NCBI GenBank assembly: GCA_016906335.1
Contig: JADEYG010000001.1
Location: 1,697,952-1,761,951 of the forward strand
Length of the DNA stretch: 64,000 bases
Source of the DNA: Novakomyces olei
Lineage: Eukaryota; Ascomycota; Novakomycetes; Novakomycetales; Novakomycetaceae
Direction: 5' to 3'
Numbering within the stretch: position 1 is the stretch's first letter; every line of letters begins with the position of its first letter. The notes beneath the pieces are model-generated. The model was not told the DNA's origin. It saw only the letters and a program-made list of their open reading frames with translations, and did not search any database. A program made the translations under genes and the position numbers. Shown here one piece after another: positions 3,818 to 64,000 of the stretch.

Positions 3818-4548
3818 AATCTTGCTATTGTTGTGGCTCAGGTACAGTAATTAGGTCTATTTCGAGTATGTTTTAGTTTTTAAGAAAGTGTTTAGTACAA
3901 GGGATTTTGAATTAAAAATCTTTGTTTGTACTATTGGTTTCAGCCAATGTACGCCTATTTGAAAGTCGATCATAAAACAAAGCTCTTTCACCGGACAGAG
4001 ACTCAATAGATTTTGCTTATTACACAGCACGTCAAATCATTTGTGACTAAATCTGAAAACAATCTTTATTAGTTATTAGATATTAGATATATTATTAATA
4101 ATTCGCGACAGTATATGACGGGGATAGACCCGAAATGTCGAACCCAACCAAATGAGCAGTAATTTTGAAGAAAGAAGGCAGTCTGAAACTCGCGCGACCA
4201 GATATCTTAAAAGCCACCCCATAGTCATTTGCATTAGGCGTGAAAACCACGATTACGTTTTTGTAATCACGCGAGAAGGTGGATATGGAAAAGCAACGAG
4301 TAACATCAAAAGAACAATCGTTACTTGTTTTGGTACTGTTTTCCATTTATGATGAATATTATTGATGAATAGAATACAATACAGTAAATCCTAAGCGAGC
4401 ACGCAAGTATGAACTGCCCGCATATAACGTGGGCAGTAATGGCGCAAGAATGAAGTTAAATAATGCATTTTAAATCCCACGTATAAACTCGACATATATC
4501 AGCCGTCTGATAATTGTATTTTGCTCCCTCCGAAAACTTTGCACGACA
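3818..4548. other. Intergenic, AT-rich
   Basis: No gene with coding character seen. Two ACGTGGG/TCCCACGT motifs (4427-4433 and 4475-4482) lie 67-122 bases before the next start. Confidence 0.4.
4427..4482. promoter_or_regulatory. Pair of ACGTGGG motifs upstream of the BVMO gene
   Basis: ACGTGGG at 4427-4433 and its reverse complement in TCCCACGT at 4475-4482 form an inverted pair 41 bases apart. The same core lies upstream of several other genes here. It resembles the bHLH-type CACGTGGG core (Pho4/Cbf1 class), but the factor is unknown. Confidence 0.4.
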
Positions 4549-6419
4549 ATGACAGTCAGCCATGGAGTGAGCGGCGTTAATGGCCATGCTAATGGCCACA
4601 CTAATGATGAGGCTAGACTGCATTTTAGTTTGGAAGATCATGCTATTGATGACCATCCGCCTCTGAAGGTACGGTGCATGAAGATTGAGCGAAATAATTT
4701 GTTATTAACAAATAATTCAAACAGGTAGTAGTTGTTGGTGCAGGCCTGGCAGGAATAACGGCCGGGATTTTGATACCTCAAAAGGTGCCAAAATTGAATC
4801 TCGTTATCTTTGAAAAAAATTCGGGAGTGGTATGAATATAAACGAAAATTGAGCTTAATTTACTAACATGTCAGGCCGGAGTTTGGCGTGAAAACGTTTA
4901 TCCAGGAGTACGCTGTGACGTACCAGCACACGCGTATCAGTCAACATTTAGTCCCAATTTGGACTGGTCCGAGCCTTATGCGCAAGGAAAAGAGATTCGT
5001 GAATACTGGGAGGGTCTAGTAAAGAAATTCAATGTGGACAAATATCTTAGATTAGAAAGTCGTGTGAAAGAGGCAGTTTGGGACGAAGAGGCCGGTAAAT
5101 GGCATCTTACTGTTGAAGAAGTAGTTACAGGTCGAACATACACAGAGGACACTGATGTACTTATTTCCTCGACTGGCCAATTTAACGATTGGCGTCTTCC
5201 GGATTATCCTGGAATCGATACTTTCGAAGGACATTTGCGCCATTCTTCCAACTGGGATCCCACGTTTGAACCAGATGGTAAAAAAATTGCTGTTATCGGC
5301 AACGGTGCAAGTGGGATACAAGTTTTGCCTCAGCTACAAAAAAAGGCCGGACACTTGTACCATTTTGCACGTAATCCGACGTGGGTAGCTGGAAGTTTTG
5401 GTGGAGAAGAGCGACGGCTTGAACCGTTTACTCAAGAGGAGCTCACACAAATTAAAGATCCTGAGTTTTATTACAAATTTCGTAAAGAACTGGAAGGCCG
5501 ATTCTGGACAAATTTCCCAAATGTCTTCAAAGACTCCGAGGGCAACAAAGCACTTCGTGAAGAGATTTTGAAAACCATGCGCATTCAAGCGGAAAACGAT
5601 GAGGAGCTTTTGAGTCTGCTTACACCCTCTTTTTCACCTATTTGCCGTCGTCTTACACCCGGACCCGGTTATATTAATGCTATTCGCCAAAATAATGTTG
5701 ACTATATCCGTCCAAGAATAGCCCGCTTTACCCGGAATTCTATCGTTACTGAAGACGGTGGCGAATATAAGGTAGATGCTGTAATTTGCTCTACAGGCTC
5801 AAGCCCATCTTTTGCGCCCTACTTTAAATTGGTTGTTGACGGGATTGATTATGCCAACAAGTGGCGAACTCAAGGTCCTACGGATGCTTACTTGGGCATA
5901 GGGTACTCCAAAGTACCAAATTATTTCACAATTGGTGGTCCTTATTCCACTGGATACTCGGGAACGGTTCCATTCTCCGTGGAGAACGCTACTACCTACA
6001 TTAGTCGTGTACTGAGAAAGATTTCGCTGCAGGGAATAAAAAAGATAATCATAAAGGACGAGGCGGCTCGTGATTTCCAGGCCTATGCCAAAGAATTTTA
6101 CAAGAAGACAGTATGGCAAGAAAACTGCAGTAGCTGGTATAAAGGTGGGAAACATGATGGGCATATTTATGGAGTGTTTCCCGGATCTGCAAGACATGCG
6201 GCAATTGTGCGAAGCGATCCTCGCTGGGAAGATTTCAGTTATATTTATAAAAACCCAACTAATCGGTTTGCTTGGCTTGGCAACGGATGGACTACAGTAG
6301 AGGAAAAGCTGATAAATGGTGAAGATTATCGTAATCTTGATATGACACCCTATCTCAAGCGTCCTGATGAGCTTGTTGATCTTCGAAATCATTTAGAGTC
6401 GTGGTCTCTGTGGCTATAG
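4549..6419 (+). CDS. Baeyer-Villiger flavin monooxygenase, 3 exons
   Basis: Exons 4549-4668, 4725-4829 and 4875-6419, all phase 0, give 589 aa. The second intron has a textbook TACTAAC branch point 7 bases before its AG. FAD Rossmann motif GAGLAG at residues 45-50, then EKN and the YPGVRCDVPAHAYQ block. The Baeyer-Villiger fingerprint FxGxxxHxxxW(P/D) is matched exactly by FEGHLRHSSNWD at about 192-203. NADPH Rossmann motif GNGASG at about 217-222. It should insert oxygen next to a ketone carbonyl to give an ester or lactone using NADPH and O2; the closest known group is the cyclohexanone/4-hydroxyacetophenone monooxygenase type. The first 40 residues are a polar His/Asn-rich leader. It sits 0.7 kb after the FMN monooxygenase on the same strand. 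Confidence 0.93.
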
Positions 6420-6806
6420 ACTCACTATTTTACTACTTTAGATAGCTCGAAAGTTGGAAATCATAATAATTACGATTATTAGAGTCATCATCAGTGTCAA
6501 AAGCGTAAACTTTCGTAAATCCAATACAATAAGCTTATCCTAACGACTTTGGAAAACGCTAGTTTCATGATAGTAGTAGTATTCAAAACAAACTAGGATT
6601 GGTGATGAAGCAAATCAAAAACGGAGCCACATAATATAATATTGTTTCTATATTATTTCAAATCTATTTATGGTTATGAGTTGTTGTACTCATATCGACA
6701 TTGGCACCATCAACGTCTACTATTGTGTCTTTTTTGATGCAATACAAATTATTGATCATAAAACTCGTTCAAGATTAGCGCACTTTTGAAAATCCCAATC
6801 TGGAAT
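6420..6806. other. Intergenic between convergent genes
   Basis: AT-rich space between the 3' ends of the BVMO gene (+) and the MDR gene (-). No feature seen. Confidence 0.4.
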
Positions 6807-8023
6807 TCATATAATCTGTACCACATACTTTGCGCCACGCTGACCACCTGTCTCGTTCTTCTGCAATCGCCGTAATCCCTCTTCAACCCAGTCTAATCCC
6901 GGAAGTACTTTAATTTGCGGGAACTTCAATAACCCTTTCCCTGCTAAAGAAGTCAAAGCCTTTTGATATTTAGAATTTTCTTCGTGCAATATAAACCATT
7001 TCATCTGCACGTCATGTACAGTAACACTAGTAGTCACAGAAATATCTTTGGGTAGAGGACTTGCCAATGACGCAAAATCCCCGCCACCAGACTCAGCCAA
7101 AGCTTGTAAACCACTTTTTGCCGTGTTTTCATTAGCTAAATCCACAGCATACTCAATGACGAGTCCCAAATTTAAAATTTTGGTCTTAATTTCATCGTTG
7201 CTCAACCCATCCCTTACAATGAAATGCTGAGCACCGAGAGATTCGATAAGCGAAGCTGAGGATTGTGAGCAAATAGTCACTACTACTAGACCGCTGAGGC
7301 TGGCCAGCTGAATCAAGTACTGGCCCGTAACTGTTGCACCACCCCAGATAAGAATAGCTTTTCTTGCACTCAATACACTGCTGCCAGATTCTGGGATGGG
7401 GACGTTGAACCAATGCCAAAGCGTCATTGCTGCTGTAAGCCCACATACTCCGAGCGTTGATGCTTCATAGGCTGAAATTGCATTCGGTACGTGGTCTACT
7501 GTATGTGCAGGCACAGTCACGTACGACTGAAAGCATCCTGCACGACGGTCTCGGTAATATGTAGAAGTCCAGACTAAATCACCGATATTAAGTCCTTTGA
7601 CATCTCCGCCTACGCGCACAACACGGCCAGTAAGCTCACGTCCAATAACCTGCATATTAGTAAATTATAGGGCAATAACAGAAACAGAAAAGAAAGAATT
7701 GACAAGTATACCCATGGTCTTTCAGGTAAACAAAATCCGTACTCCACACTTTTCCAGTCTATCGGGTTTAATCCTGCTACGTAGGCCTCAATAATCACTT
7801 CATTGGCTGAAGTAGACGAAGAAACAGGGAAAGATTCCGTATACTCGTATGTTTTGCCCTCGCGAACTAGAAATGCTTTGCCATGACTGGGAAGCTTTGG
7901 AAGAGGGTCGCTCCTGCTCCCTTCTACTTTTAAAGCACGCTTCAAAGCATGGCTATGATAGTTGTAGGGCTCTTGTCGGTAGCTGGCCACCTGAAGTTGA
8001 CCTATGCTTCGTGCAACGGGCAT
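6807..8023 (-). CDS. MDR-superfamily NAD(P)H-dependent reductase/dehydrogenase, 2 exons
   Basis: On the minus strand, exon 1 is 8023-7712 and exon 2 is 7649-6807, with an intron GTATAC..TTACTAATATGCAG and phase 0 (384 aa). The N-terminal GroES-like domain has ANEVIIEAYVAGLNPIDWK, then IGRELTGRVV. The Rossmann domain has the GGATVTG nucleotide-binding loop within AILIWGGATVTGQYLIQLA. The usual zinc ligands of alcohol dehydrogenases are not apparent, so it fits the zinc-free enoyl-reductase/quinone-oxidoreductase type (fungal CipB and trans-enoyl-reductase relatives). It may reduce or oxidise intermediates made by the adjacent monooxygenases, which is inference from position only. A CACGTGGGA motif lies 99 bases upstream of the start. 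Confidence 0.85.
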
Positions 8024-44940: not shown

Positions 44941-45828
44941 ATGATTTCAGTCGCGTTTAGTATAGTGTTTACCCTTTGCGCGGTGCTGCTGCCTGCGCAG
45001 CTGCAGCCCGCGGCAGCCTTCCCGCTAACGCGCCGCAGCACCGGGTGCCATCTGCAGGGTTTTGGCGATGGCCTTCCTTTTTACATTATTGACGGGTACC
45101 TGTCGGAGCCGGGAGGCCGCTACTGCTCCGTCACGGACTACCACCAAGTCCAGTGTGACCCGGGCAACCCTCGTGCAGCGTGGGATGACAAGTTTGGTGT
45201 TAGCAATGGGTATCTTACCCACGATGGCATTCAAGATTTTTGGACGTGTGAGGGAGGTTCGCTCTACACTTTTCAGGTACAGCCGTCGTGCACGCGTACA
45301 CAGATTCCTGTTTCGTGCGACCATCCGACACTGTCGCCCCCGCCCTCGCCGCCGAGCTCTACGTGTGACACGTCGGGAGGAAAGCCGACGATTTTACCGA
45401 GCGTCTACGTCACCGTGTCAAGCGAGCTCCCCAATGAGTCGTTCGACTTTGGAAATGGCGGCGAAGTGTGGGGCGAGCGCGGCTTCCAGTTGGTGCTCCA
45501 GTTTGACGTTCCTTTTGGCACGAACGGAAACTGCGTCCTCAAGGGACTGTTTCCCTCTAGTGGAAGCTATAGTCTGACGTCTGCGGATATTATCGTTCAG
45601 GATCTCGTCGCCAGCGTCGGCGCTGGCAGTACTTACTCCTCTCTTCCTGCCCAGGGCGCTTACTATGGGAGCATGTCCGTCACTGACAATAGTTTCCCGG
45701 TATCACGGCCGTTTAGCTGCAACGCGGGTGGACAAAAGAACATCATGCTGTCTTGCAAGCTGGGTAGCTGCTATCTTGATTTCACCGAAAGCAGCACCGT
45801 TGGATTTGTCTTGGTTGGATCCTGCTAG
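44941..45828 (+). CDS. Secreted But2-domain protein
   Basis: 295 aa. The N-terminus is a clear signal peptide: MISVAFSIVFTLCAVLLPAQ, then Ala-rich to about residue 26, followed by FPLTRR, where LTRR could be a Kex2-like site. The first part has paired cysteines (GCHLQGFGDG, YCSVTDYHQVQC, FWTCEGGS, SC). A Pro/Ser linker (LSPPPSPPSS) follows, then a C-terminal beta-rich domain with QLVLQFDVPFGTNGNCVLKGLFP and a Cys-bearing end (SCKLGSCYLDFTESSTVGFV). The C-terminal part resembles the But2 domain (PF09792) of fungal extracellular and wall proteins. The gene is GC-rich in an AT-rich setting. It is probably a surface or secreted protein; the role is unknown. Confidence 0.75.
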   Translation: MISVAFSIVFTLCAVLLPAQLQPAAAFPLTRRSTGCHLQGFGDGLPFYIIDGYLSEPGGRYCSVTDYHQVQCDPGNPRAAWDDKFGVSNGYLTHDGIQDFWTCEGGSLYTFQVQPSCTRTQIPVSCDHPTLSPPPSPPSSTCDTSGGKPTILPSVYVTVSSELPNESFDFGNGGEVWGERGFQLVLQFDVPFGTNGNCVLKGLFPSSGSYSLTSADIIVQDLVASVGAGSTYSSLPAQGAYYGSMSVTDNSFPVSRPFSCNAGGQKNIMLSCKLGSCYLDFTESSTVGFVLVGSC

Positions 45829-46564
45829 CAGCGTCGACTGCCAGGGTGTCTACCCAAAGTTTCGTTTCTGGGTTACGAGTATACCGTGGTACATACACCG
45901 TTGGCCGAAAAGTAGTGCAGATTAATTGGACGATTGCGAAAAATTCGACGATTGTAAATAATTGAAACATTAAATAACTGGAAAATTCAATAATTTAAAT
46001 TGGGTAAACATATAGCAAATGCCTAGATATTTTCACTGATAAACCAGTGATTGTGCAAAAGCATTGAATTCTTCTACCGCTGCAGCTTTTTTCTACTTCC
46101 TAACGACGCAACCTTGTTTCTCTCAGGAGCACTCTCACCTGTCTTTTTCATCTGACACGCATTACAATTCCCGCTGTCAGCTCTTACTTCCAGACTCCTT
46201 ATTCTTCCAATCTCATGAGAATAGACCATAAGCATTTTAATGCCTGAAAGTCAGTCTGTATGACGCAGTTGGGGGATTCCGCTTGATGCATCAGCGACAG
46301 AAGCTGGTATCAAATATATATAAACTACTATTATTAGTTATATTTATTAATTATATTTACTAATTATATTTGTAGAATTAAACAGTGGATAATAAAGTAA
46401 TTATTAATTTACTATTGAGACAGATTGTTATATTTAGGTAGCCTATTCGAAGCAGGTTTACCAAACTAACCCTATCAAACCCTAATAAACCCTAAACCTA
46501 GTATAAATTTGGGTTCCATTATAGCAACAATAATATTTGAAACGTACAGGGTTTGAACCAAAGC
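45829..46564. other. Intergenic with degenerate telomere-like tract
   Basis: CTAACCCTATCAAACCCTAA and following TAAACCCTAAACC at about 46466-46499, 65 bases before the HNH start. An AATTATATTTA-type AT repeat lies at about 46330-46380. Confidence 0.55.
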
Positions 46565-47395
46565 ATGGCGGCGCATAGTCTGGACTACACGACGAGTGCA
46601 ATGAAATGGGGCCCTCCGATAGCGAGAGTGGTTGACTCGGAAGGCGTCCAGTTCGTGACTGTTCCTTTGAGCTTGGTGGAGAAGGCGGGCAGCGAGGGGG
46701 TCAAGACAGTGCAGTACTTGACGTATGTGGTAGAATGCGCGATTGAGAACGATGCAAGGGATATTGAACTGCAAAGGAAGGGCGAGATTTGCGCGGCCAC
46801 CGACCAATTGCTTTTGGGAGATTATGTACTGACCCATCCAACTGCGGACAAAGTCAGGTTTCGTCGCGGTCCACAGGGCAAATCATTGTCGCGAAACTTT
46901 ACTCCCTCAGGTTCGCAGTCTACTGTGAGCCGATCGTCTCGGAGCTCCGCTCGGCAAACCGATTTCCGCGTCGACACGCTCAGCCGCGATTCTGGTTCTT
47001 GCTTGCTAACAAACGAGCGCAATCGCTCCATGCTTGTTGCATGCCACATCGTGCCGTACAGTCTTGGACAGTCCTTTCTCGACCAAGTCACAAACTTGGC
47101 CAACACTGGCCTACAGATTGGGCTATACGACCTTCGTAACGGCCTTACACTGAACAGGGGCCTACATTATGTTTTTGATCGCTACGAAATTGGCATCTGG
47201 ACGGAAAACGGGCAATATTATGTACATTCTTTTCTTGGCGATGAAAGATTTCACGGCAAACAAATATACTGGCCCTCTTTTGTACCCGAAAGTGAGAAGC
47301 CTTTACCGATATTACTGCAATGGCACTATCGACAATGTGTTCTGGCGCGGTATCGAGGGTTCAAGGTGTCGATGATTTCATACGACACTCACTAG
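46565..47395 (+). CDS. HNH nuclease-domain protein (HNH_2 type), copy 1
   Basis: 276 aa from the first ATG. The N-terminal domain of about 110 residues begins TSAMKWGPP; a GPQGKS motif and a Ser-rich linker STVSRSSRSS follow. The HNH domain has RDSGSCLLTNERNRSMLVACHIVPYS (His161), RNGLTLNRGLHYVFDRY (Asn192, His201). The His-Asn-His metal triad is complete, so it could cut DNA. A conserved tail LQWHYRQCVLARYRGF ends the protein. It shares every block with the gene at 55703. The pair resembles fungal multi-copy HNH_2 proteins, often found in variable regions. No signal peptide. Telomere-like repeats lie in its promoter. Confidence 0.85.
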   Translation: MAAHSLDYTTSAMKWGPPIARVVDSEGVQFVTVPLSLVEKAGSEGVKTVQYLTYVVECAIENDARDIELQRKGEICAATDQLLLGDYVLTHPTADKVRFRRGPQGKSLSRNFTPSGSQSTVSRSSRSSARQTDFRVDTLSRDSGSCLLTNERNRSMLVACHIVPYSLGQSFLDQVTNLANTGLQIGLYDLRNGLTLNRGLHYVFDRYEIGIWTENGQYYVHSFLGDERFHGKQIYWPSFVPESEKPLPILLQWHYRQCVLARYRGFKVSMISYDTH

Positions 47396-50700: not shown

Positions 50701-53117
50701 ATGTCCGATATGGTTCGGGCTGTTCCACCAGATACGCAGGTATCTGTCATTGAGCGGCATCCTCTGTCTGACCAGTTGGACATTTTGAGAAGCAGAATTA
50801 AATGTAAACTGCCGACTTTATATTCACGAGCAAGGCGTGTTAAACGCAACGGTATTCTTGTCGAGTCAGATATGCGCCAAGTCTTAGAGTTTGTGCGCTC
50901 AGCAATTGAGGTTGATGGTAAAAGCCTGTGCATTCAAGATAGTATTTTACCACTAATACAATAAAAAAGACTCAAAACAGATTATTCATGATTTGCTTGA
51001 TACAATATCAAAAGCAGATCAGCAAGTGGTTCACAACGAAGGTGCAATATGCTCTGAGCTTGCATCACTCGCTTCATTATGGGTGCGAGAGACTCACACT
51101 CTGGCTTACCTTTTTCCTCAGGTTGCACGGCTTATTGCAGCAGTAGTAGCAAAATTACCAGATAAAGACATTTGGACTTTTGTGCTCGAGCTATTAGTCT
51201 CGCACCAAGAGAAGACTGCTCAGATATTGTCTCTGGCCCAACCGGAAGAGATGTTGTGGCCAAGAACCCCTGCGAAGCGAGTCAAGTTGTCAAATACTCA
51301 GATTACTCCTTTGAGATACAGTAGTGCATCATCTACGAGTGTTCGTTTCTCAGTCGACCAGAATTTACGCCTGGAATTTAGAGGGAGACTGTTCAGGAAT
51401 ATGCCAGGATTTTTTGAAGCCTATTTTGCAAAGCCAAAGTGGAAACATAAAGCCGATGGTTTGCAAGGCCGACTGCCTGACTGGCCTAGCAATACGTCAG
51501 AGAGTCAGCTTTTGGCATGGTTCGATAAGTTCAATGAGGTGGCAAAATTGCCAAGCTTATTTTATTTCTCTGGTAATTCAGCCCTGATTTCGGAGCTTGA
51601 TACCCGACGGAAATGCGATGTTTTTGTGCAGTTTAGCGGTACAGCACAGACTTCGGGATCTTACCGATGGGAAGACGTCCTTGTCGTGGGAGAGCTCAAA
51701 AATACTTATTACAATAGCAATTTATCTGCGGAATCGGTTGTGCAATTGATGGGGTATGTAAGAGAGGTGTTTGCAACACAGCCCACTCGGCGTTTTGTGC
51801 ATGCGTTCCTGATCAACAAAAATATAATGTGGTGCTTTCTATTTGACAGAGGAGGAGGTATAATTAGCGAGCCGGTTGACAGCCGAATGGAGCGCAGCAA
51901 GTTTATCCAAATTCTTGTTTCGTATTGCAGTATGGACCCTAAGGAGTGGGGTTATGATCCGACAGTCCGGACATCAAGAGGGATTTACGTATCGCCGCAA
52001 AGGGCACAGGGTTTAAGGCCATTTGTTAGTGTGGGTGGAACTCGCTATTATATCGAGCGGGACCCTATCTACATTGTTGCAGCAATTGCGAGCAGAGGAA
52101 CATTGGTGAGACGGGCAAGGGGTCCGAATGGGAAAGTGTATATAATCAAGGACATATGGAGATCCTGGTACCGTGAATCAGAGGGTGCGTTGCTTAAATG
52201 TGCGGAGCAGCGAGGAGCAAAAGGGATGCCAAAGTGTGTCTGTTATGAGGACGTGCAAGTTGATGGCATCGTAGACAGAATTGTGGAAAACGTTAGAACG
52301 GGCCTTAGTCATACGGGTTTGAAACCATTCAAGTTCGATCTGAAAGTGCAAATGGATGAAAGCACAGTCGATAATGAGGGGAATGAAGCAGATGACCCCG
52401 GCTGGGATCGGGTTCATACGCGGATCGTATTAGAAACTGAGGGAAGAAATATTTACAGGCACCGCAGTGAGCAAGAGCTTTTAGAGGCGTTCCGCGATGC
52501 GATAAAAGGTATGTATAAAAGCAAAATGACAAGCGACATTAACATACATAGTGCACAAATCGCTATACATGGATGGGAGAATTCTCCATAGGGATATTTC
52601 AATAAATAACATAATGATCCGCCACGAAGTGGAAGAAGGATTAAAAGGTTTTCTAATAGATTTGGACCTAGCGAAGGACTTGACGAAACAAACAGATAAC
52701 CCTGCTGATCGACACCGGACCGGGACGAGAATGTTTATGGCAATAGAGCTTCTGATGGAGCCAGTATATCACACGTACCGACATGATCTAGAATCATTTT
52801 TGTACGTGCTTATATGGATTTGCGTGAACTACACATGTGATGGTCAGAAAAGAAAGCCGCGGCCTACAATTCTCGATGGATGGTCAGATAAGGTGGCGAA
52901 ATATGTAAAGTTTTCGCAGATGACAATTCCAAAAGAATTTGATAAACTAATGGCGGTGTTTGAAGGATATAAACAGCTACATAAAGTCGCCGCCGGCATG
53001 CGGATGATTTTATTTCCTATCAAAAATGGCCCTTTTCTAGGCACTGATTCAGAGAATGAAGATGCCGTGTATGCCGACATATTGAAAGTATGCGATAGTG
53101 CACTTGGACAGTTCTGA
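50701..53117 (+). CDS. FunK1-type protein kinase with PD-(D/E)xK-like domain, copy 1, 3 exons
   Basis: Exons 50701-50917, 50970-52508 and 52552-53117 (773 aa); introns GTAAAA..AATAAAAAAG and GTATGT..ACATAG. Residues about 285-320 read CDVFVQFS, then WEDVLVVGELKNT: Asp and then GExK, as in the PD-(D/E)xK nuclease core (about Asp289, Glu314, Lys316). The kinase part follows: VYIIKDIWRSW (Lys about 466), ILHRDISINNIMI (HRD about 598-600), LIDLDLA (DLD in place of DFG, about 622-624), RTGTRMFMAIELL and HDLESFLYVLIWI. These last motifs are diagnostic of the fungal-type FunK1 kinases (PF17667). All key kinase residues are present. The intron placed between exons 2 and 3 restores GVHKSLYMDGRILHRD. 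Targets are unknown. Confidence 0.87.
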
Positions 53118-53392
53118 GAGGCGCGGAAAATAACAGTAAATCAATGCCTATCTATGTCGAAATTTTCAAGAAAATAGATCACGAAAGTACGGGAATGGGA
53201 GCTGAACTTGCTCTATATAGCATAGCAAAATATCTTAGCAATGAATCATTAATAACCGTGAGTCTGAATATAGGAATTCTACGCCTAACGGCTTTTATTT
53301 GCGGGTTAGTGCTGTGATAAAGGGACGGAAAGCCGTGAAGGGGCCCGTACGGCTGGCCATTCTCCAGAAAGTATAGATCTAGCTCTGACTCG

Positions 53393-53845
53393 CCTATACA
53401 TATTCCAGCGCGCATTACGCCGCAAAATCAATAATTTGTTATGTGATTATTATAGCATTGAAAATTGGACAGGGTTTTCGGTTTGATTTTGCGGCGTAAT
53501 GCGGTCCAAAAAATAAATTAATGTATGAGGGGGGGGTCATGCTAATTACCTTAACATACGCGCGAATTACGGCGTAATGTAAATAAGAAATGCAGTAGAA
53601 ATTTGGAGGGAGGGTTTTCAGAGACGGATTTTACTGCATAATGCGCCGTTAATGTATGGGAAAAAGCGCGGGTATGTTAAGGTAATTCACAGTGGAGGCT
53701 ATACATATTCCAGCGCGCATTACGCCTAGATATATTCAAGACGGAATTATGGCGAAATTCCATTTTTATGTAATGTGATTCTTATTATGTATAATTCTAG
53801 TCAGGGTTTTCGCTTTTCCTTTACGCCATAATTCCATTTCGAAAA
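53393..53845. repeat. Paired-hairpin subtelomeric repeat, locus 1
   Basis: Hairpin 1: arms 53411-53430 and 53484-53503, a perfect 20-base inverted repeat with a 53-base loop. Hairpin 2: arms 53544-53563 and 53666-53687 with a two-base bulge. The phrase CTATACATATTCCAGCGCGC recurs before hairpin 1 (about 53395) and at 53699. A further hairpin has 12-base arms 53743-53754 and 53824-53835, inside a 120-base block (53726-53845) that is repeated at 62163-62282. No ORF of note. Looks like a MITE or foldback element. Confidence 0.8.
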
Positions 53846-55421
53846 CTTTTACCTCTTTGCGGTCACAAAATGTACCAATCTTTGTCATACGGCTGGGCCA
53901 GCACAATGCTAGGTCTGATTGCGCTTATTCTTTCGGCTACGCCTTATGCATTTGCAATTTTTTTAAGGAGGCATGATGCAACATTGGTCGAAAATGGTAT
54001 TTGAAGGAGCAATTCGGGTTCCTCAGCTAGAAATGCTAGTGGGGTTACAGAGAAAGCTAATCAAACCATTTTACAGGTATGAACACTAGATACAGAAAAT
54101 ACTGGCGCAGCGAGCCCAATTATCCCGAATTCTGATAGACGTTGATCAAAGCTTGGCTCCCGGAAACTACCAGCATTATTCTGACGGGGGCACGCTTAAA
54201 TGAATACGTCTTTTAGAATATTAATTATATGCTGGCGCTAATGCAATAGTTCATGTCTTTCCTTTCTCATCTGCGCTGTAAGCTGCCCTTGAGAGACGTC
54301 ATGAGTCTGAAGGCCACACTCATGTGAAAACATGTTGGCTTCTGCCATCACTAGTTGCCATATGGTCATGATAAAGAAGCGGGAATAGGCGCTACTATTC
54401 TGCATAAGAGTCACTACGAATGGCATCAGGGATTACAACGGGCAAGCTTGTAGGCGGGATCATACTGGCGCGATTGTTTGGCTGTGAGCATTGACTAGAT
54501 AGATCAAAGATGGACTGCATCTTTGATCATGCTTGATTGCCCTTGGCTTTTTGCTTGTCCCGACCTCCTAAAATAACTTCAGACCAGGAAAAGAATCACA
54601 AGGTATTCGGTTTCTGCCGCCCTTATTCGCTCCGTCTACCTTCGGATAAAGCTTCCGAGCTCGTAAATACTCAGACAATTCGTTGTGAGTAGTCACTTAT
54701 TACCCTCGAGGGCCATGAAAGCATTATTTAATCGATTCCTGTGGGTCACATATTTTCGTTTTGCTTGCCTGGTAGAACCGCTGAACAAGTAGACAAAAGC
54801 GGAAATATAGCAAGAACGAGAGACGGGGAAGCGGGTAAAAACCCAATTTGTCAATTACTCCTTTTATGTAACCGGAAGTTGGTCAGACTGCCCAAACTAT
54901 ATCACTCTGGAAGGATTTTGTCAAAGTTAGATGTGTAGACGAAGAAATGTATAAGATGCTCCTGAGGACGCGATTATGCTCCTCGATTCGTGTCATTGCT
55001 GCTGTTCTATGTGTCTTGCAACGACGACTATTCATTCTCAAGTTCGATCTGTGTAGACAAGCGTTGACTTAATTGGTATGGCCTGTCAAGCCATCGCTCG
55101 GTGCTATGATTTTTTTTGGTAGCATAGAGCCAAGGAAAGGTTGAGTAAAGAAGGTAAAAATAATTTAGACCTCTATTTCCATCGTCCATGTAGAAAAAAT
55201 TATCTCCAATTCACCGTTTCGTCTACTTTTGAGGCTCAAGGGTTGGCTTGTCCCAGCGGGACGGTGTTACACTCAGCAATAAGATTTTCCAGCTTCTCCC
55301 TAATACTTCGCACCACAAACTCAATTGACGCTCTTTCTATTCATCGATATTTCGTCGGGTCGGCTACCTTTTAACGTGAACTTTTCCAGTTTAATATATG
55401 GGCAATGTACTAGTGCGTTCT

Positions 55422-55440
55422 GACATTTCGCCGAAATATC
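55422..55440. promoter_or_regulatory. 19-base palindrome, upstream of HNH copy 2
   Basis: GACATTTCGCCGAAATATC, one of three near-identical palindromes (others at 55500 and 62020) with a GACATTTCG half-site. Confidence 0.45.
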
Positions 55441-55499
55441 AGTTATAGGGTTTTCTTGATTTTTAGACTGCAATTATTATACAAAACAATATACTAACT

Positions 55500-55536
55500 G
55501 ACATTTCGTCGAAATGTCGCTAGTAATAATAACTAG
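55500..55536 (+). promoter_or_regulatory. Palindrome plus CTAGTAATAATA element upstream of HNH copy 2
   Basis: A perfect GACATTTCG-T-CGAAATGTC palindrome followed by CTAGTAATAATAACTAG. About 36 bases match, in the same orientation relative to the gene, the sequence just before the FunK1 copy 2 gene (62003-62038, read on minus). It lies about 170 bases before the HNH ATG. Confidence 0.55.
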
Positions 55537-55702
55537 GATCCTACGTTTAGTGCAGCGTCACGTCCTAAGGATCAAAAGTAATAATGCTGGATCTTATTTA
55601 GAGCCAATATGTTAAAATATTTACAAAAATCAATATGCGATTATGAAATTTTGACCTTGGCTTCACCCTCGACGAACCCTGGCAAAACTGTGGACTCTGG
55701 GG

Positions 55703-56497
55703 ATGAAGAGCAATACAAGCGAGCTAAGTGCGATAAGCTGGGGCGCTGAGGGGATTGCAACCCTTGTTTCAAAAGATGGAGCCACAATAGCGGCGGTTCC
55801 GATTCAGTTCACAAATGCAGACCCTCATCCCGTCAACACAGCAGCTTACCTGTACGATGTTGCGCGGCGGTTGATATCCAACTTTAAAGTGGAGGATATC
55901 ATTCAGCGGGGTGGGAGCACCGTTAACCCGCAAGATCCGCTTACTTCTGGCATATACGCGGTGGATATGCTATTAGACAATATTGAACATCGTCCCGGTC
56001 CACAAGGGAAGTCGTACCACAAACGATTTTCTGATGCGGATAGTTCATCAACTGTCAGCCGGTCGTCGCGTTCGTCTCAAGCGCAGACGTACTTTCGCGA
56101 GGATCTTCTTTTGCGTGATGGACGTTGCGTCTTCACAGAAGCCAGAGGGCGTACCGCTGTTGTTGCGTGCCACATTGTTCCCTACAGTCTCGGCGACACG
56201 TACCTTTCGGAAATACTGGGAAACCAACAGTTCTCTGGTATTTACTCTTCTTCGAACGGACTGCTCATGAGGAGGGATATCCATTTCTGTTACGACAGAT
56301 ATCTCCTAGGGTTCTATCGGATTGCGCCAAATGTATACGTTATTCATTCCTTTGGGACGGGCTACCGTGAACTTCACGGAAAAATCGTGGATTTTAACAT
56401 CGAGCCCGGCGATCCTTCTATACCACCTAATGAAACACTCATGGCTTGGCACTATTCTCAATGTCTTATGGCAAGGATGCGTCCGTTTGTGGTTTAA
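55703..56497 (+). CDS. HNH nuclease-domain protein (HNH_2 type), copy 2
   Basis: 264 aa, one exon. Same layout as the gene at 46565: an N-terminal domain with SAISWGAEG, RPGPQGKS, the Ser linker STVSRSSRSS, then RDGRCVFTEARGRTAVVACHIVPYS (His157), SSNGLLMRRDIHFCYDRY (Asn185, His194) and MAWHYSQCLMARMR at the end. The triad is complete. The two copies are strongly diverged outside these blocks, so the duplication is not recent and both stayed under constraint. It shares an upstream element with FunK1 copy 2. Likely a DNA-cutting or effector-type nuclease; the partner is unknown. Confidence 0.87.
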   Translation: MKSNTSELSAISWGAEGIATLVSKDGATIAAVPIQFTNADPHPVNTAAYLYDVARRLISNFKVEDIIQRGGSTVNPQDPLTSGIYAVDMLLDNIEHRPGPQGKSYHKRFSDADSSSTVSRSSRSSQAQTYFREDLLLRDGRCVFTEARGRTAVVACHIVPYSLGDTYLSEILGNQQFSGIYSSSNGLLMRRDIHFCYDRYLLGFYRIAPNVYVIHSFGTGYRELHGKIVDFNIEPGDPSIPPNETLMAWHYSQCLMARMRPFVV

Positions 56498-56570
56498 TGA
56501 GCGGGTGCGATTCGTGCTTCGACCCTGTTGGACAATTCAACAGTATATTCTCATCCCAGGGCTCACTATT

Positions 56571-57620
56571 ATGAGGAAGCTTTATGTTTTTAATGAAGCC
56601 TGGGTTTATGGGTATTCTACCCTATGTCTTATAATCGAAGACTGTGTAATCTTCTAGGGTTTCAAATGACCCTGCGGTGGGCTCTTTGGCCAAATTTTCG
56701 CCAATTTTTGATGCAGGTTTGTCGCTGCGCAGATTAAAAAGGCATGCCGACAAGCTGCTTATCCGGCTGCAAGTTCGGCATGTATGTCCTACTGAAAGAG
56801 CCATTCATGTGGGCTGCTGGGGTACTGAGCTTCTTATTGGTGACGGGCACGATTGCCTCACAACTACTCTGCTGCTCCCGCTTGTGTCAAAGGACTCAGA
56901 CATCAGCGCGCGCAGGTCGCCGCCCTCCCTGTATGCCAACAGCAGCTTTTATGCCGATGTGCTGTTTTGTGCAGTAATGCGATCAGTGCCGGAACCACAT
57001 CAACGCTCGCCGTAAAGTCATAATATCAGATGCGATTCTGCAGCGCCCTGCACGACCCATACTTTCATACTCTGCGCGTGGACTCTGTTACGCGAGCAAT
57101 CAGCGTAGACAGCGAAGCAGTAGCGCTTTTCATTGGTGTAAATTTAACATTCTCCCAGATAGCAGATGATTTATGGGATTTTGGTACAGTGCGTAATGGA
57201 AACACTGCACAAAGTCCCGTAAAGCCTACACCTGCCCTTGAACTTGATGATGAGTTGGATCCTACAGTGCTGCAACACCTGCAGATTTCCGAGAATACCA
57301 CAATCAAGCCTGCACGCACCGAGCCGCCAAAAGCTACCGACGCTTTAAATAGGACAATGACGGTTACTGGCTTGAATAAGGGAAAAGATACCAATGAAAG
57401 TAAACCTAAAGTTGCTGAACAGACAAGTGACGACTGGCTATCGCTGTCAGAATCAACTTTTCATTTAGATAAGCGCGACCGTCTGCTCGAGACACTAAAG
57501 CGCCTGCGGCAAAGTGAGGACGCAAAAGTTTTGCACGCTGCTCAATTGCTTGCTGATGCCATAACTGCAAGTGAAAAGGAGTGCCCCGATATTTTAACGC
57601 GTTTGCTCCACGATGTATAG
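56571..57620 (+). CDS. Hypothetical three-exon protein
   Basis: Predicted exons 56571-56611, 56658-56973 and 57030-57620 (315 aa); introns GTATTC..CTTCTAG and GTAATG..ATATCAG, with phases that close. The first half looks folded (CPTERAIHVGCWGTELLIGD and ADVLFCAMRFCSALHDPYFH, then VDSEAVALFIGVNLTF). It is followed by a disordered Thr/Pro/Lys-rich segment and a charged helical C-terminus (DKRDRLLETLKRLRQSEDAK). I do not recognise the family. The first exon is the least sure part. It lies between the HNH and FunK1 genes. Confidence 0.5.
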
Positions 57621-59240
57621 AGAGGTTCAACATTCAGGTTAGATTGTGGCCTTTTTATCGAGATTTATGTTCCATTCGCCTGTGATTATTTGTAGTTTGT
57701 TCAAGAGTGGATTGTAGAACGTGGAGGTTTTGACGAGATCAATTTGGCCGTTTGCACGCCGTCTCACCGTATTAGTTGAAATCTTTATGGCCAAACTGTA
57801 ATAGATTACATAACGTATCGAAATGTGCAAGCTCAATCGTGCAGTCATCGAAGCGATTACTAAACAAGCGCAACAAGTGTCTCATGAGCACCTTGCATTA
57901 TTTACAACACGGACAACAAAAGATTTCGTCTCTTGATTTTGGTAGGCAAAGTAACGATGCCGTCTCACGCGCGCAACCTTCATGGATAAACTGTAAAACT
58001 CGTGCATAAACGAAAATATTAATAGTTTAAAAAGATGCATTCTATCGTGTTCATTGCAGACTGTCGGAAATAATCAAAATAATACTTAGGATTGATCTAC
58101 GTTTAGTGATTTAAATAGAAAACTATATAAGTACAGGTAGCACCTAGATTCAAATTTAGATGGCATTCAAGCTAATTCACTGCTTATAAAACACAACTTT
58201 CCAACACAAACTAATAGGATGCAACACGCTTTAAATACGTGCAAATAACTGCATGGCCTCTACTCGAAACTGTAATTTGAATGTCAAATAATCCATTCAT
58301 GCACACATGCTGTAATTAATTACCAAGCCCATGCTAACAAGCAATTCATATTTACGCGTGACAGGCAACCTTGCTTCCATTAATTTTGGATACCACAGGT
58401 TTGTTTGTGGAAGAGCGTTTTTATGAGAGGAATTCTGGTCTACAGCCATGCTTTCAGCTGCTGTGCCCGATGAGCAGCTTTTTGTTATTGAGCAACATGG
58501 TTTGGTCGAATTGTTGGAGAGTCGGAATAGCCATAATTTAATCCTTCATATTGACTCAAAGCACTTGGGATGTAAGTGCATACATCACATGGCGGCTGTT
58601 TCCTGTATCAAGGTTCCAGGCACCAATGTTTTGCCTCGCGCTATGCGCATAAGAATCGGGTATGAGATAAAAGTTGCCTTCCTTGTCCCAGCCTCATAAA
58701 TCAGCCAGTCCACCTGAACAGTGGCAGGTCAAAACGATGGACGGAAGCCGGCACTCGAACGCAACCCACTCATACTTATTTCTTTCGGCTAAAGCCACAT
58801 TCCAGCCAACACGCCATTCCAACAAATAATACTGTATCAGTCACGACTTCCCCTTACTTTCGACATATTTCTTGCCAGCTATCGTCGCCATGTCACCGCC
58901 ACTGCCACAGCTATTTCTATATTACTCCAGCGCTCATACAGTCCCTTCGCCACTGGTGCTGCCATGCGACGGAGTTGGAATCGCCAGCAATAACTGGAAT
59001 TGTGGAGGCAGGAACTCCGTCAAAAAATATTACTTGATTTCTGTCCGTTCAATACGCGAGGCTCTTGAATGCTCATGATGGGTTGTATCGCTATTGGTGA
59101 ACTAATGGAATCAAAATAAAAACGCCAACAATATGCTAAACAAAATGCAATTTAAATATGCTCAATAATATGGCATAACTATGCCAGACTTTAAAGCCTG
59201 GACGAAAATGAAAGGGTATTATACATCACTGGCCCCCGGC
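57621..59240. other. Intergenic with a probable FunK1 remnant
   Basis: Mostly AT-rich. The one recognisable part is the remnant at 58448-58699. Confidence 0.4.
58448..58699 (+). pseudogene. Possible remnant of a FunK1-type gene 5' end
   Basis: The 83-codon ORF begins MLSAAVPDEQLFVIEQHGL, which parallels the first exon of the kinase at 50701 (MVRAVPPDTQVSVIERHPL). Similarity then fades and no kinase or nuclease part follows before the next gene. It reads as the surviving 5' end of a third copy. The match is short, so this is tentative. Confidence 0.4.
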
Positions 59241-62002
59241 CTACTTGACCCTTCTTGCCTTTTTCTTCGGGACTCCCTGGCCTTCATGAATTTCTTCGTC
59301 CTCCTGACCACCCTGATTCCCATGGTCTCTACGATTTTCATATTCTCTCTGGAATTTATAGCTGCCATAGGCTTCGTGGCCTCTCTGTCCCCATGGATCT
59401 CGTAACCTCAGTGACCTCCGTGGCCCTTCTGGCTTCCCTGCCTCCTGGCCTCCCTGGCTGACCTGATTGACCTGGCCTCCCTGGAGTTCACCGCCTCCTT
59501 GGACCCCCTTTCGTTGCAGATTTTCCAGCCGCTCCACTTCGCTGCTCAATATATTGAGAATTTTGTCATACAATTCTTCACCTTGTTCGATACGTACGCC
59601 TCTTGAATCTTTCATGAACAATGCAATGCGAAGCTTTTCCATGCATCCCATCAAAGGCTTATGGTCATTAGTGAAATTTTCCGACATTTCGCGCATAAAA
59701 ATATCGGGATTCTCAACGATTTTTGATTTATACGCCGAGACCTTTGACATACTGGCATAGTTCCAATCATCATACGGAGAATTCTGATTAATAGGCTGTC
59801 CATTTTGGAAATAGTGAGTCAAAATCCAGTAAGCCACCCAAAAGTGCGACTCAATGTCGTGCATCATGGTATGATCTTCTCCGTCTAGTAAAGGTATCGC
59901 CATAAACGGCCTCGTTCCTGTTCTCTCCATCGCGCCTGACAGACCAGCTTGGCTGATCCTGATCGCAAACTCAAGATCAATAAGAAATGCCCGCCGAGAC
60001 CCTGGATTTTCAGACCCCTCATTCATCATCAAGTTCCCGATCGAAATGTCCCGGTGCAGAATATCATTCTTCACAAGCGACCGGTGGCCCTCAAGACATC
60101 CCATTATCCCTTTCAGTAGCTCTATGTGTGAACTTGCCTTGTACAATGGCTTCCCGTAGTCCAACACAACAACTCGTCGATGGACTCGGTTTTTGATTTT
60201 CGCATCCAAAGAATCAATCTGCTTTGCTGGCGACGACTCTCCGGACCTCTCCTCCGCATTCTCCTCTATATTCCATAATGGAGATTTCGCTGACCGAGTA
60301 CTGCTTCGCCGCATGTCAAGTGCTGAAGTGCCCGATCCGGTCGATCCTCTCGACCATCTTGCTCCAAGATCCGGAATTGCCTTTTTTAGAGCTCCGGTCA
60401 TGTCTAATCCATTCCGCACATTGCTCATAAGATCGTCTTCCTTGCCATCAATGTGAACCACCTCATGGTGATAATATCGCGAAATATTCTCGACACCACG
60501 AGTACCCGCTAGCTTAAGCAGCTCCCCTTCTTCCCTTCGCTCCGGCTCCTGCCACGAGTCTTTGATCACTCTGACTGCGCTCTTATCCCCTTCTCGGTGC
60601 GCCAGCCATACCGTCGTGCCTCTGCACGCAATTCCGCTCGAAGTCTTCAACACTTTGTCAATTATAAGTCGCTCACGCGTCCGCCCTAGTTTAATATCGA
60701 TATATCTATCTTTCTCTCTACTGACAATTGTCGGATCGTAACCCAGCTCTTTCTCTCCCATCGTAAGGAAAAACAGCATCACGTAGACTATCAGGCCTGT
60801 TGCTTTGTTGATGTCGAATGCTTTTGATGCTATCGCCCCACATCGATCATATTTCCACACCCTCATCGACGAGTCGCAAAGCGTAAATCCCAAAACATAT
60901 CGACGGTTATCCTGCGCTCGAAATATTTCCTTTATATACTTTGCAAGGCCAAGCCATGCTTGTGCAGGGCTATCGGCCTTACGACTGCTTTTTAGCTCTC
61001 CCACAACCAAGACGTTGTTCCATTGTTTATCAGCATTTCGCTTTATGAAGAAAATGTCAGGTTTGCGTGCGAACTTTCCAGGGAGAGGTTTATTCGCCGC
61101 AGACATTGTAGTTCGCCGCACCTCTGTGCCTTTAATTCGCTTGTAAATGTTGCTTATTTGCGTTACAAAACTCTTGAGCCAATCTAGCACCGCTGCCTCC
61201 TTCGCTGATTTGGGCCAATCCTTCAATTTACCGTTTTTGAAGAGTAAGTTTTCTTGGTTTGCCTCTTTAACCACTCTCGCCGATAGTTTATTGAGCGATT
61301 TTTTCTGAGTGGACAAAATATCCTCCACCTCAAAGTTGATATAGAAAAATTTAAGTTCAGCTTTGATTTGCTCTTCGACCTCTATTAATCGTTCGCTAGA
61401 ATTGTACGCAATAGAATTAATATTGAGTGGCGTCCCAGGAGCTTGTTTTGGTGGCTCTTCCTTCGTTTGGCTTTGAGCTTGCCTTAATCGCTCGACCTTC
61501 CTTTGGCTTTCCGCTACAACATCGTTCAGTTTCTCCCAAATCTCTAAGTCGTTATCATGTTTAAATGCAGCCGTCAGGACTGGGGCAATGTCATGATAGT
61601 AAAGCCGGATATCAGAGGCAATGTCGTTAACTAGTTCACTTATAGCAGGTTGAACATCCTCCGCCACAGCACTCAACTGCGGAAGCAAGATTCTAGCCAG
61701 CCTAAAATAGTCTATAGATGTTAGGCATAAAGAAAAATCGACGAGACCCAATCGTTACCTTTTTCATGGAGCAAAAGGGCATTATACTGTCCTGAAGGGT
61801 CTCTATAGCCTGCTTTGTCAATCCGACGTAAACTTTCGTAAAAGTAATATAAATGCGGTGTAAAGGGATTATCGTTAAGCATTCGTCGAATTCCATCGTT
61901 TATCTCGACCGCACCGGGCTCTGGCCTTAAAGGTTCCGCCATCGCCGCTGCGGTCAAGGTGGGAACGCGACTCGAGCCAATGAATGCATGTTGGATATAC
62001 AC
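59241..62002 (-). CDS. FunK1-type protein kinase with PD-(D/E)xK-like domain, copy 2, 2 exons
   Basis: Exon 1 is 62002-61759 and exon 2 is 61711-59241, with intron GTAACG..CCTAACATCTATAG (904 aa). An in-frame ATG at 61942 (MAEPLRPE) would give 884 aa and may be the true start. Middle region: KPDIFFIKR, then WNNVLVVGELKSSRKAD (Asp and GExK as in PD-(D/E)xK nucleases). Kinase region: VRVIKDSWQEPERREEG, DILHRDISIGNLMM, FLIDLEFAIR (DLE in place of DFG), RTGTRPFMAIPLL and HDIESHFWVAYWI. The insert between VIKD and HRD is long and Ser/Arg-rich. The C-terminal 90 residues are Gly/Gln/Glu repeats ending in a basic, nuclear-signal-like KKKARRVK. It is larger than copy 1 and very divergent from it. Confidence 0.88.
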
Positions 62003-62038
62003 TAGCTATTATTAGTAGTGACATTTCGACGAAAAGTC
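62003..62038 (-). promoter_or_regulatory. Palindrome element just upstream of FunK1 copy 2
   Basis: GACATTTCGACGAAAAGTC at 62020-62038 with CTAGCTATTATTAGTAGT beside it. Read toward the gene it is the same element as at 55500-55536 upstream of HNH copy 2. Confidence 0.55.
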
Positions 62039-62162: not shown

Positions 62163-62460
62163 CTAGATATATTCAAACCGGAATTATGGCGAAATTCCAT
62201 TTTTATGTAATGTGATTCTTATTATGTATAATTCTAGTCAGGGTTTTCGCTTTTCCTTTACGCCATAATTCCATTTCGAAAAATAATTAATGTATGAGGG
62301 GGGGGTCATGCCAATTTCCTTAGCATTCCCGCGAATTATGGCGTAATTCTAATAAGAATGGTAGGAGAAACGTGGAGGCAGGGTTTTTTAGGGAGAATTT
62401 TCCGACTAAATTCCAAATTATAATATGGGAAATTGCGCGGGAATGCTAAGGAAATTGGCA
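62163..62460. repeat. Paired-hairpin subtelomeric repeat, locus 2
   Basis: 62163-62282 is about 118/120 identical by eye to 53726-53845, including 12-base hairpin arms (62180-62191 and 62261-62272). A TGTATGAGGGGGGG segment follows, then hairpin 2 with perfect 25-base arms at 62309-62333 and 62436-62460. The order hairpin 1, G-run, hairpin 2 is the same as at locus 1. Confidence 0.85.
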
Positions 62461-62879
62461 TAAACGGGGGTAAGAACGACGTAAGAGCAAAAATAGTTTC
62501 CGCCTTAATTCCAAAACATTGGCAAACGATATTGCGGCGAGGGTAGGGTTGCTGAATTTATAAAATATAATTATTATACAAGATGGTCTACACATATTAT
62601 AGCTATCTGATAATATAATAAAAATATTATAGAGAGAGCCCCATAGTAATAAAGTATAATAAGAAAAACGTCAGAAAAATAAGAAAAATTAAGAGTGTGT
62701 AGTCCATGTGTAGAGGTGACAAAACGTCGAATGAACAAGTGTTTTTACAAAAAGTGTATGGTTGGATAGAGGGGTGCAGTAGGAGTGTAAATATATACTT
62801 GTTTACAAGATTGGATTAGTAATTATGGAGATATATGGGTTTAAAGATTTATAAAAAGCTCATGACGGCGCAGGATGCA

Positions 62880-63545
62880 TTTTATGTGGCATTATAATAA
62901 TGTATAGTAGAATAATTTATTGTAAAGCAATGTATGTATAATAATGTATAGTATAATAATGTATGGTAATTTAATGTATAGGAATAATGTATGTATAATA
63001 ATGTATGGTATAATAATGTATGGTATAATAATGTATTGTAAAGTAATGTATGTATAATAATGTATGGAGGAATAATGTATGGAGGAATAATGTATGTATA
63101 ATAATGTGTGGTATAATAATATATAGTAAAATAATGTATTGTAAAGTAATGTATGTATAATAATATATGGTAGAATAATGTATGGAGGAATAATGTATGG
63201 TAAAGTAATGTATGTATAATAATGTATGGTAGAATAATATATGGCATTATAATGTATGGTATAATAATATATGGCATTATAATGTATGGTATTATAATAT
63301 ATGGTAGAATAATGTATGGTAGAATAATGTATGGAGGAATAATGTATGGAGGAATAATGTATGGATGAATAATGTATGGATGAATAATGTATAGAGGAAT
63401 AATGTATGGTAAATTAATGTATGGGCATTAATGTATGGAGGAATAATGTATGGATGAATAATGTATGGATGAATAATGTATAGAGGAATAATGTATGGTA
63501 AATTAATGTATGGGCATTAATGTATGGGGGCATAATGTATGAGAT
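62880..63545. repeat. Subtelomeric satellite, core AATAATGTATGG
   Basis: More than 40 degenerate units of about 12-17 bases, alternating AATAATGTATGG with spacers such as TAGAAT, AGGAAT, ATGAAT, TAAATT and GCATT. The longest ORF, on the minus strand (62882-63277), is only this repeat translated (Tyr/Ile/His-rich) and is not a gene. Higher-order units are visible: a block around 63355-63430 recurs at about 63445-63520. Confidence 0.92.
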
Positions 63546-63550
63546 TTGTT

Positions 63551-63633
63551 CAGTTAGGGTTAGGGGTAATTATTGGGATAATGTATGTGGTATTATAATG
63601 TATGAGGAAGTTGTTTTATTAGGGTTAGGGTTG
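63551..63633. repeat. Two short telomeric tracts at the satellite edge
   Basis: GTTAGGGTTAGGGG at about 63552-63567 and TTAGGGTTAGGGTTG at about 63618-63632, between satellite units and unique sequence. Confidence 0.75.
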
Positions 63634-63880: not shown

Positions 63881-64000
63881 AGGGTTAGTTAGGGTTAGTT
63901 AGGGTTAGTTAGGGTTAGTTAGGGTTAGTTAGGGTTAGTTAGGGTTAGTTAGGGTTAGGGTTAGTTAGGTTAGGGTTAGTTAGGGTTAGTTAGGGTTAGT
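63881..64000 (+). repeat. Telomere, 10-base unit GGGTTAGTTA
   Basis: A continuous array of AGGGTTAGTT units to the end of the window, with rare variant units lacking the TTA spacer (TTAGGGTTAGGG near 63951-63962). The G-rich strand runs 5' to 3' toward the end, as at a right chromosome end. Confidence 0.96.

Follow-up and report, generated by a model that had tools for sequence, protein, structure and literature searches.

At the right telomeric end of a contig of the small genome of Novakomyces olei, nuclease and kinase genes lie close together and a short palindromic element stands 5' of one gene of each kind, which raises the question of whether this element is a shared switch or a separate inhabitant of the same compartment. 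The stretch analysed, called the window, is 64 kb long (G000:C1:1697952-1761951) and ends contig C1 (1.76 Mb) of a 14.3-Mb assembly of 15 contigs; positions are those of the window unless a contig is named. By its protein relatives the assembly is ascomycete-like. Named relatives of its pyruvate decarboxylase belong chiefly to filamentous ascomycetes, the best at 70% identity. It holds two HNH_2 nuclease genes and two genes of the FunK1 kinase family. A sequence-only reading had proposed a co-regulated nuclease/kinase conflict or effector module. The account favoured here, with a probability of about 0.55, is that of a subtelomeric mosaic in which two nuclease-type conflict families are amplified and shuffled, and to which a separate palindromic repeat is added. 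The conflict-type part of the earlier proposal is partly supported, by the concentration at chromosome ends, the predicted ubiquitin-like domain of the HNH protein, the FunK1 motifs and a common 3' module; its regulatory part is not supported.

The HNH and FunK1 genes

Pfam searches confirm the four genes announced by the sequence-only reading:

46541..47395, + strand: HNH_2 gene b, open frame of 284 amino acids (aa) (Pfam PF13391, E 9e-9)
55655..56497, + strand: HNH_2 gene a (PF13391, E 2.5e-12), first ATG of the conserved frame at 55703
50701..53117, + strand: FunK1 gene a, exon 50957-52508 with the nuclease motif, 43-nucleotide (nt) intron 52509-52551, kinase exon to 53117
59241..61942, - strand: FunK1 gene b, nuclease motif and kinase, 884 aa, 47-nt intron, ATG at 61942

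The two HNH proteins score 46.9 and 35.5 bits against PF13391 (cut-off 21). Their catalytic motif is intact, as had been claimed for all four genes: residues H173, N201 and H210 are kept in all 10 aligned HNH proteins. HNH_2 is the only Pfam family that this 10-sequence set matches above chance. The structure model of HNH a has a predicted local distance difference test (pLDDT) score of 78.6, and its fold-search matches predict a protein in which a ubiquitin-like N-domain is joined to an HNH nuclease domain.

FunK1 b matches PF17667 (Pkinase_fungal) over 59241-61754 on the - strand with 422 bits (E 2.2e-126), and the two exon frames of FunK1 a (50957-53117) match it with 210 and 132 bits (E 5.5e-62 and 2.1e-38), for a cut-off of 24.1. 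Both genes, FunK1 a as far as it is delimited, form open frames across short GT-AG introns. The spliced frame of FunK1 a from 50957 is 705 aa long with one stop, which is terminal, and a further first exon probably lies near 50701-50960. The C-terminus of FunK1 b, PKKKARRVK, resembles a nuclear-localisation signal.

In these proteins, a PD-(D/E)XK-type motif (D233...E253-x-K255) is followed within one chain by the kinase residues (398-593). In FunK1 a, CDVF (220), GELK (245) and QLMGY (263) are found in exon A and HRD in exon B. Among 30 aligned FunK1 rows, the nuclease D, E and K are present in 29, 30 and 29, respectively, and the kinase K/D/D in all 30. As the nuclease residues are retained in proteins from many species, the domain is under constraint, which suggests that FunK1 proteins belong with nuclease-kinase conflict proteins and not with signalling kinases. 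The motif and the predicted topology point to a PD-(D/E)XK fold for the nuclease stretch. In the HRDIS segment, S571 replaces the active-site lysine in 30/30 rows, a substitution described for FunK1 kinases in the available part of PMC3203195.

The kinase remnant mentioned in the sequence-only reading was not recovered: tblastn of the window with four window and 11 fetched proteins, like the PF17667 genome search, returns just the two FunK1 loci. The library of bacterial defence systems PADLOC gives weak HNH and kinase matches only (best E 8.6e-5).

Subtelomeric distribution and shuffled modules

Both families are concentrated at chromosome ends. On the nine long contigs, 24 of the 27 HNH loci (remnants included) and all 10 FunK1 loci are located less than 65 kb from an end, in zones amounting to 8% of these contigs. 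These counts exclude the HNH and FunK1 matches on C8 and C14, which are short contigs. They also exclude four PF17667 rows (C7:1472588, C2:3102, C12:516356, C12:207478; 27-37 bits) whose match is confined to the kinase end of the model and which are taken for other kinases. Recent and decayed copies occur side by side. Among 32 HNH rows listed, 18 are stop-free across at least 200 query residues. Copies of FunK1 b on C7, C4 and C2 are 97-100% identical and stop-free, and a second FunK1 group has stop-free 809-aa frames on C3, C5 and the left end of C7.

The expectation that the two families co-occur at chromosome ends was not borne out after correction for their subtelomeric position. Both are present at 6 of 18 ends, HNH alone at 4, FunK1 alone at 2 and neither at 6 (Fisher p 0.16, or 0.22 without the right end of C7). 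HNH and FunK1 therefore have a compartment in common, with no demonstrated pairing beyond it.

A DNA search with 56480-59300, between HNH a and FunK1 b, yields matches that break off at sharp borders, and the following segments are recognised:

56650..57620, + strand: remains of a family of 351-aa open reading frames (ORFs), C-terminal 198-aa piece at 57024-57620, probable further part at 56650-57015
58054..58217, strand not assigned: interspersed repeat of about 160 base pairs (bp), with 18 further places
58522..59026, strand not assigned: 3' module of 505 bp, follows FunK1 b

The 351-aa family has stop-free full-length frames on C5 and C3; the ORF at 57024 has a chance-level Pfam match (E 0.19) and no NCBIfam family. 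In the window, on C3, on C4 and at the left end of C7, its segment is 1.6-2.8 kb away from a FunK1 gene; on C5 the distance is some 20 kb, and a piece in the C7 interior has no adjoining FunK1. The further places of the 160-bp repeat (query 1564-1738) are distributed over C1, C2, C3, C4, C5, C7, C8, C9 and C15. The 505-bp module has an 88% match at C12:1347977-1348481, where it follows an HNH gene (C12:1348612-1349382, - strand) in the same relative orientation. Its presence in both places shows directly that a part is common to an HNH and a FunK1 locus. The identities between copies and the sharp borders suggest two routes of spread, exchange from one chromosome end to another and the swapping of modules.

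FunK1 and HNH could instead be host genes of an ordinary kind that merely drift in the subtelomeres, FunK1 encoding a signalling kinase to which an accessory domain is attached and HNH a restriction-like nuclease. FunK1 relatives in many filamentous ascomycetes, judged by record names, fit such an origin. The conserved nuclease D/E/K across species argues against it, as do the strong subtelomeric clustering and the coexistence of recent and decayed copies; on balance it is unlikely.

The palindromic element and its repeat

The sequence-only reading had described an element of about 36 bases present twice. The inverted pair is real (55500-55536 and 62002-62038, 37 nt, 89% identity), but the window harbors three palindromes and not two, the third being at 55422. 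With up to three mismatches, the count of 3 compares with 0.06 expected and is reached in 0/100 shuffles, for a pattern that was taken from the same window sequence. The two copies are:

55338..55536, + strand: subtelomeric repeat copy E1, two palindromes (55422-55440, 55500-55518) plus one in degraded form near 55346, terminus GCTAGTAATAATAACTAG at 55519-55536
62002..62038, - strand: subtelomeric repeat terminus E2, palindrome at 62020-62038, also found on C7, C8 and the right end of C2

A full copy at C1:18533-18832 reveals the nature of the element. It is about 300 bp long and exhibits four 19-bp palindromes spaced 62-82 bp and the terminus GCTAGTAATAATAGCTA; its longer relatives (18 rows) are 72-98% identical. 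The element of 36 bp thus corresponds to one end of a longer subtelomeric repeat. In the N. olei genome, to which the search was applied, the palindrome occurs at 32 places with up to two mismatches (reversed-pattern control, 0) and at 43 with up to three (control, 5). The idea that the element is specific to HNH and FunK1 genes fails on this distribution: 30 of the 32 places are less than 65 kb from a contig end. The remaining two, at 1.835 Mb on C7, look like a relic end, since they lie where two telomere-adjacent blocks, with minisatellites, are joined head to head.

Other fungi possess X/STR-type subtelomeric repeats and RecQ-like telomere-linked helicases. The N. olei repeat is similar in kind, as it is a short palindromic repeat found beside a telomere-adjacent block, including the head-to-head junction of such blocks, and beside RecQ-like helicase genes. 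A gene for this helicase is located at C15:2722-5328, within the C15 region 2722-6853, and at least its 3' part is duplicated on C14, C4-right and C15-right. The repeat would most likely be a protein-binding boundary, recognised by a telomere-region protein, or a mobile remnant.

In a rival explanation, the element would terminate a small mobile DNA that settles near gene 5' ends or carries HNH genes as cargo, the HNH protein possibly acting on the palindrome. The terminus GCTAGTAATAATAGCTA is repeated with differing flanks, inverted ends lie about 1.46 kb apart on C7, and three of eight element groups have an HNH neighbour in the same orientation. Conversely, no target duplication was identified and no transposase noticed in the sequence examined around the copies, frames of at least 90 aa only cross the edge of the element (C1, C2, C15), and the C7 pair resembles a head-to-head joining of X-like blocks with inverted minisatellites more than a clean insertion. 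Mobility of this kind is an improbable explanation.

Is the element a shared switch?

Under the co-regulatory proposal, the element would be a promoter or operator shared by HNH and FunK1 as an effector or conflict module. It does lie 5' of HNH a and of FunK1 b, in like orientation. E1 is 120 nt away from HNH a when measured to where the matched frame begins; the first ATG is 166 nt past the element.

The FunK1 b copies argue against this proposal. Five of them were compared at the 5' border of the gene unit, marked by TATCCAAC: sequence is shared only from TATCCAACATGC onwards, some 55 nt upstream of the ATG, and E2 stops about 4 nt short of this border. Upstream of it, the C4 copy has an ATT microsatellite and the C2 copy unrelated DNA; the element is found only in the C1/C7/C8 segment. 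The C1, C7 and C8 copies represent a single duplicated segment, 98-99% identical over 9.6-11.8 kb among the 70 longest matches listed. No palindrome with up to five mismatches is found in the 0.8-1.1 kb upstream of HNH b (stretch 45500-46600), FunK1 a or the HNH gene of C2-left.

The genome as a whole gives a similar picture. The element is undetected near most other HNH loci. Element-like places near HNH starts are limited to three cases: the C1/C7/C8 copy; the copy of C15/C14, where the element is about 72% identical and lies some 240 bp from the HNH start; and a C3 remnant, about 550 bp from an HNH start whose 5' end is estimated. Downstream of the element, neither HNH nor FunK1 is matched in the 1.5 kb examined at C2-left or the 6.5 kb at C4-left, and four copies (C15-left, C14, C15-right and C4-right) are positioned at the 3' side of the RecQ-like helicase gene. 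The lack of significant co-occurrence at ends also speaks against co-regulation.

One result runs the other way. Three of eight element groups lie less than 600 bp upstream of an HNH start on the same strand, for 0.05 expected by random placement within the terminal 65 kb of contigs, and none of 4000 trials reaches 3; one of the eight lies less than 150 bp from a FunK1 start (0.005 expected in the same permutation). Most HNH loci have no element. The eight groups result from manual collapsing, and the choice of groups, windows and some 5' ends was likewise manual and post hoc. Left out were the internal pair of C7, the copy at C2-right, which is counted with E2, a lone palindrome at C7:38953 and small contigs; the 5' ends of the C3 and C1-left HNH genes are estimates, and one C15 entry bears a C14 coordinate. 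Since these choices are post hoc and segment duplication yields the same pattern, the proximity of element and HNH is read as association, not control. Given the enrichment, a role of the element in regulation or mobility is nonetheless conceivable.

The dedicated co-regulatory switch was rejected after the genome-wide search and the comparison of the five FunK1 b borders, a rejection that the HNH permutation partly contradicts; it is the least probable of the explanations considered. In the favoured account, that of the subtelomeric mosaic, the element adjoins HNH and FunK1 genes because both inhabit one small compartment, in which they are copied jointly.

Comparison with known systems

Statements on the papers cited here refer to the available parts of their texts. 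Crinkler-type proteins (CRN or CR-toxin) include a ubiquitin-like and HNH arrangement, AeCRN13/BdCRN13 among them, and headers without the LxLFLAK motif exist (PMC5289972). The predicted ubiquitin-like N-domain and the HNH domain of one window protein resemble this arrangement. The joining of a nuclease to a kinase is a separate, widespread Crinkler arrangement (REase-kinase type) with which FunK1 can be compared, and both sets of families are expanded and mosaic. The LxLFLAK motif itself is present in 0/10 HNH and 0/30 FunK1 rows, so that the window proteins are rated as working like Crinklers and not as members. The predicted header ties an ascomycete subtelomere to the Crinkler kind.

The SPOK proteins of Podospora (PMC6660238, PMC12693581) resemble FunK1 by motif order: an N-terminal part, a PD-(D/E)XK-type motif and a kinase. 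In both cases one gene encodes one protein and copies are located in variable regions. The SPOK QxxxY motif is found in FunK1 a only, among the FunK1 proteins inspected.

FunK1 itself (PF17667) is known from lineage-specific expansions in several fungi, in non-syntenic or accessory regions, its role being described as little understood (PMC3203195, PMC6001611). The genes of the window are Pfam members that share these traits. The same texts treat FunK1 as a kinase only, whereas here a conserved nuclease motif precedes the kinase.

By analogy with SPOK, the nuclease of FunK1 would be the harmful part, joined in one chain to a kinase that restrains it. Together with the Crinkler-like HNH proteins, FunK1 proteins may act as harmful nucleases in genome or mating conflict. 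Were the likeness to SPOK to hold, the lineage-specific bursts of FunK1 would be explained as those of selfish or conflict genes. A bolder form, in which FunK1 is a second large one-protein poison-antidote family like SPOK, set in a subtelomeric arsenal that exchanges modules with the ubiquitin-like-HNH genes and whose genes are moved or controlled by the palindromic repeat, is more doubtful than either mobility or ordinary host genes.

Besides the enrichment upstream of HNH genes, several observations weigh against the favoured account. The ubiquitin-like match is a prediction built on 10 sequences, and its Z falls in what the tool rates as middling. Overall, the FunK1 model has low confidence (pLDDT 60), with an N-terminal end that is helical and not ubiquitin-like. 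A profile search of the PDB with the FunK1 nuclease piece gives 0 matches at E up to 10. The FunK1 fold-search lists are filled by kinases. The SPOK cysteine cluster (C-x3-C-x13-C) that precedes the kinase is absent from all 30 FunK1 rows and from FunK1 a, for which reason FunK1 is not classed as SPOK. Finally, FunK1 is possibly linked to multicellularity (PMC6001611), which also fits ordinary host genes, and no FunK1 of Paracoccidioides is predicted to be secreted (PMC3203195).

New here are the predicted ubiquitin-like N-domain of the HNH protein and the nuclease and kinase motifs in one FunK1 protein; the overall kind is already known. A literature search covering few subscription papers found none that joins FunK1 with HNH, subtelomeres, SPOK or Crinkler, and priority is not claimed. 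A regulatory story becomes a testable genomic one, and FunK1 as a nuclease-kinase is the point worth following.

Other features of the chromosome end

Distal to FunK1 b, the window terminates with two further features:

62163..63600, strand not assigned: X-like telomere-adjacent conserved block with a 15-bp minisatellite
63881..64000, + strand: telomere array with the 10-bp unit TTAGGGTTAG

In the comparison that identified the duplicated segment, the X-like block is 89-93% identical to blocks at the ends of C3, C4, C7, C8, C14, C15 and C1-left. Similar telomere arrays are present at other contig ends, among the matches listed; the unit TTAGGGTTAG has 10 bp, with occasional variants, compared to the commoner 6-bp unit.

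The largest contig, C7, is 2.62 Mb long and contains at 1.835 Mb (C7:1835011-1838029) a head-to-head joint between two telomere-adjacent blocks whose minisatellites are inverted, the product either of an old chromosome-end fusion or of misassembly. The right 11.8 kb of C8, a 29.7-kb contig, is 99.5% identical to the right end of C7, with broken HNH and FunK1 frames; C8 is likely an allelic or error-prone duplicate. Small inverted-repeat elements with a AGGGTTTTC core are found at 53394-53845 and 62163-62456; their layout is alike and their end sequences differ.

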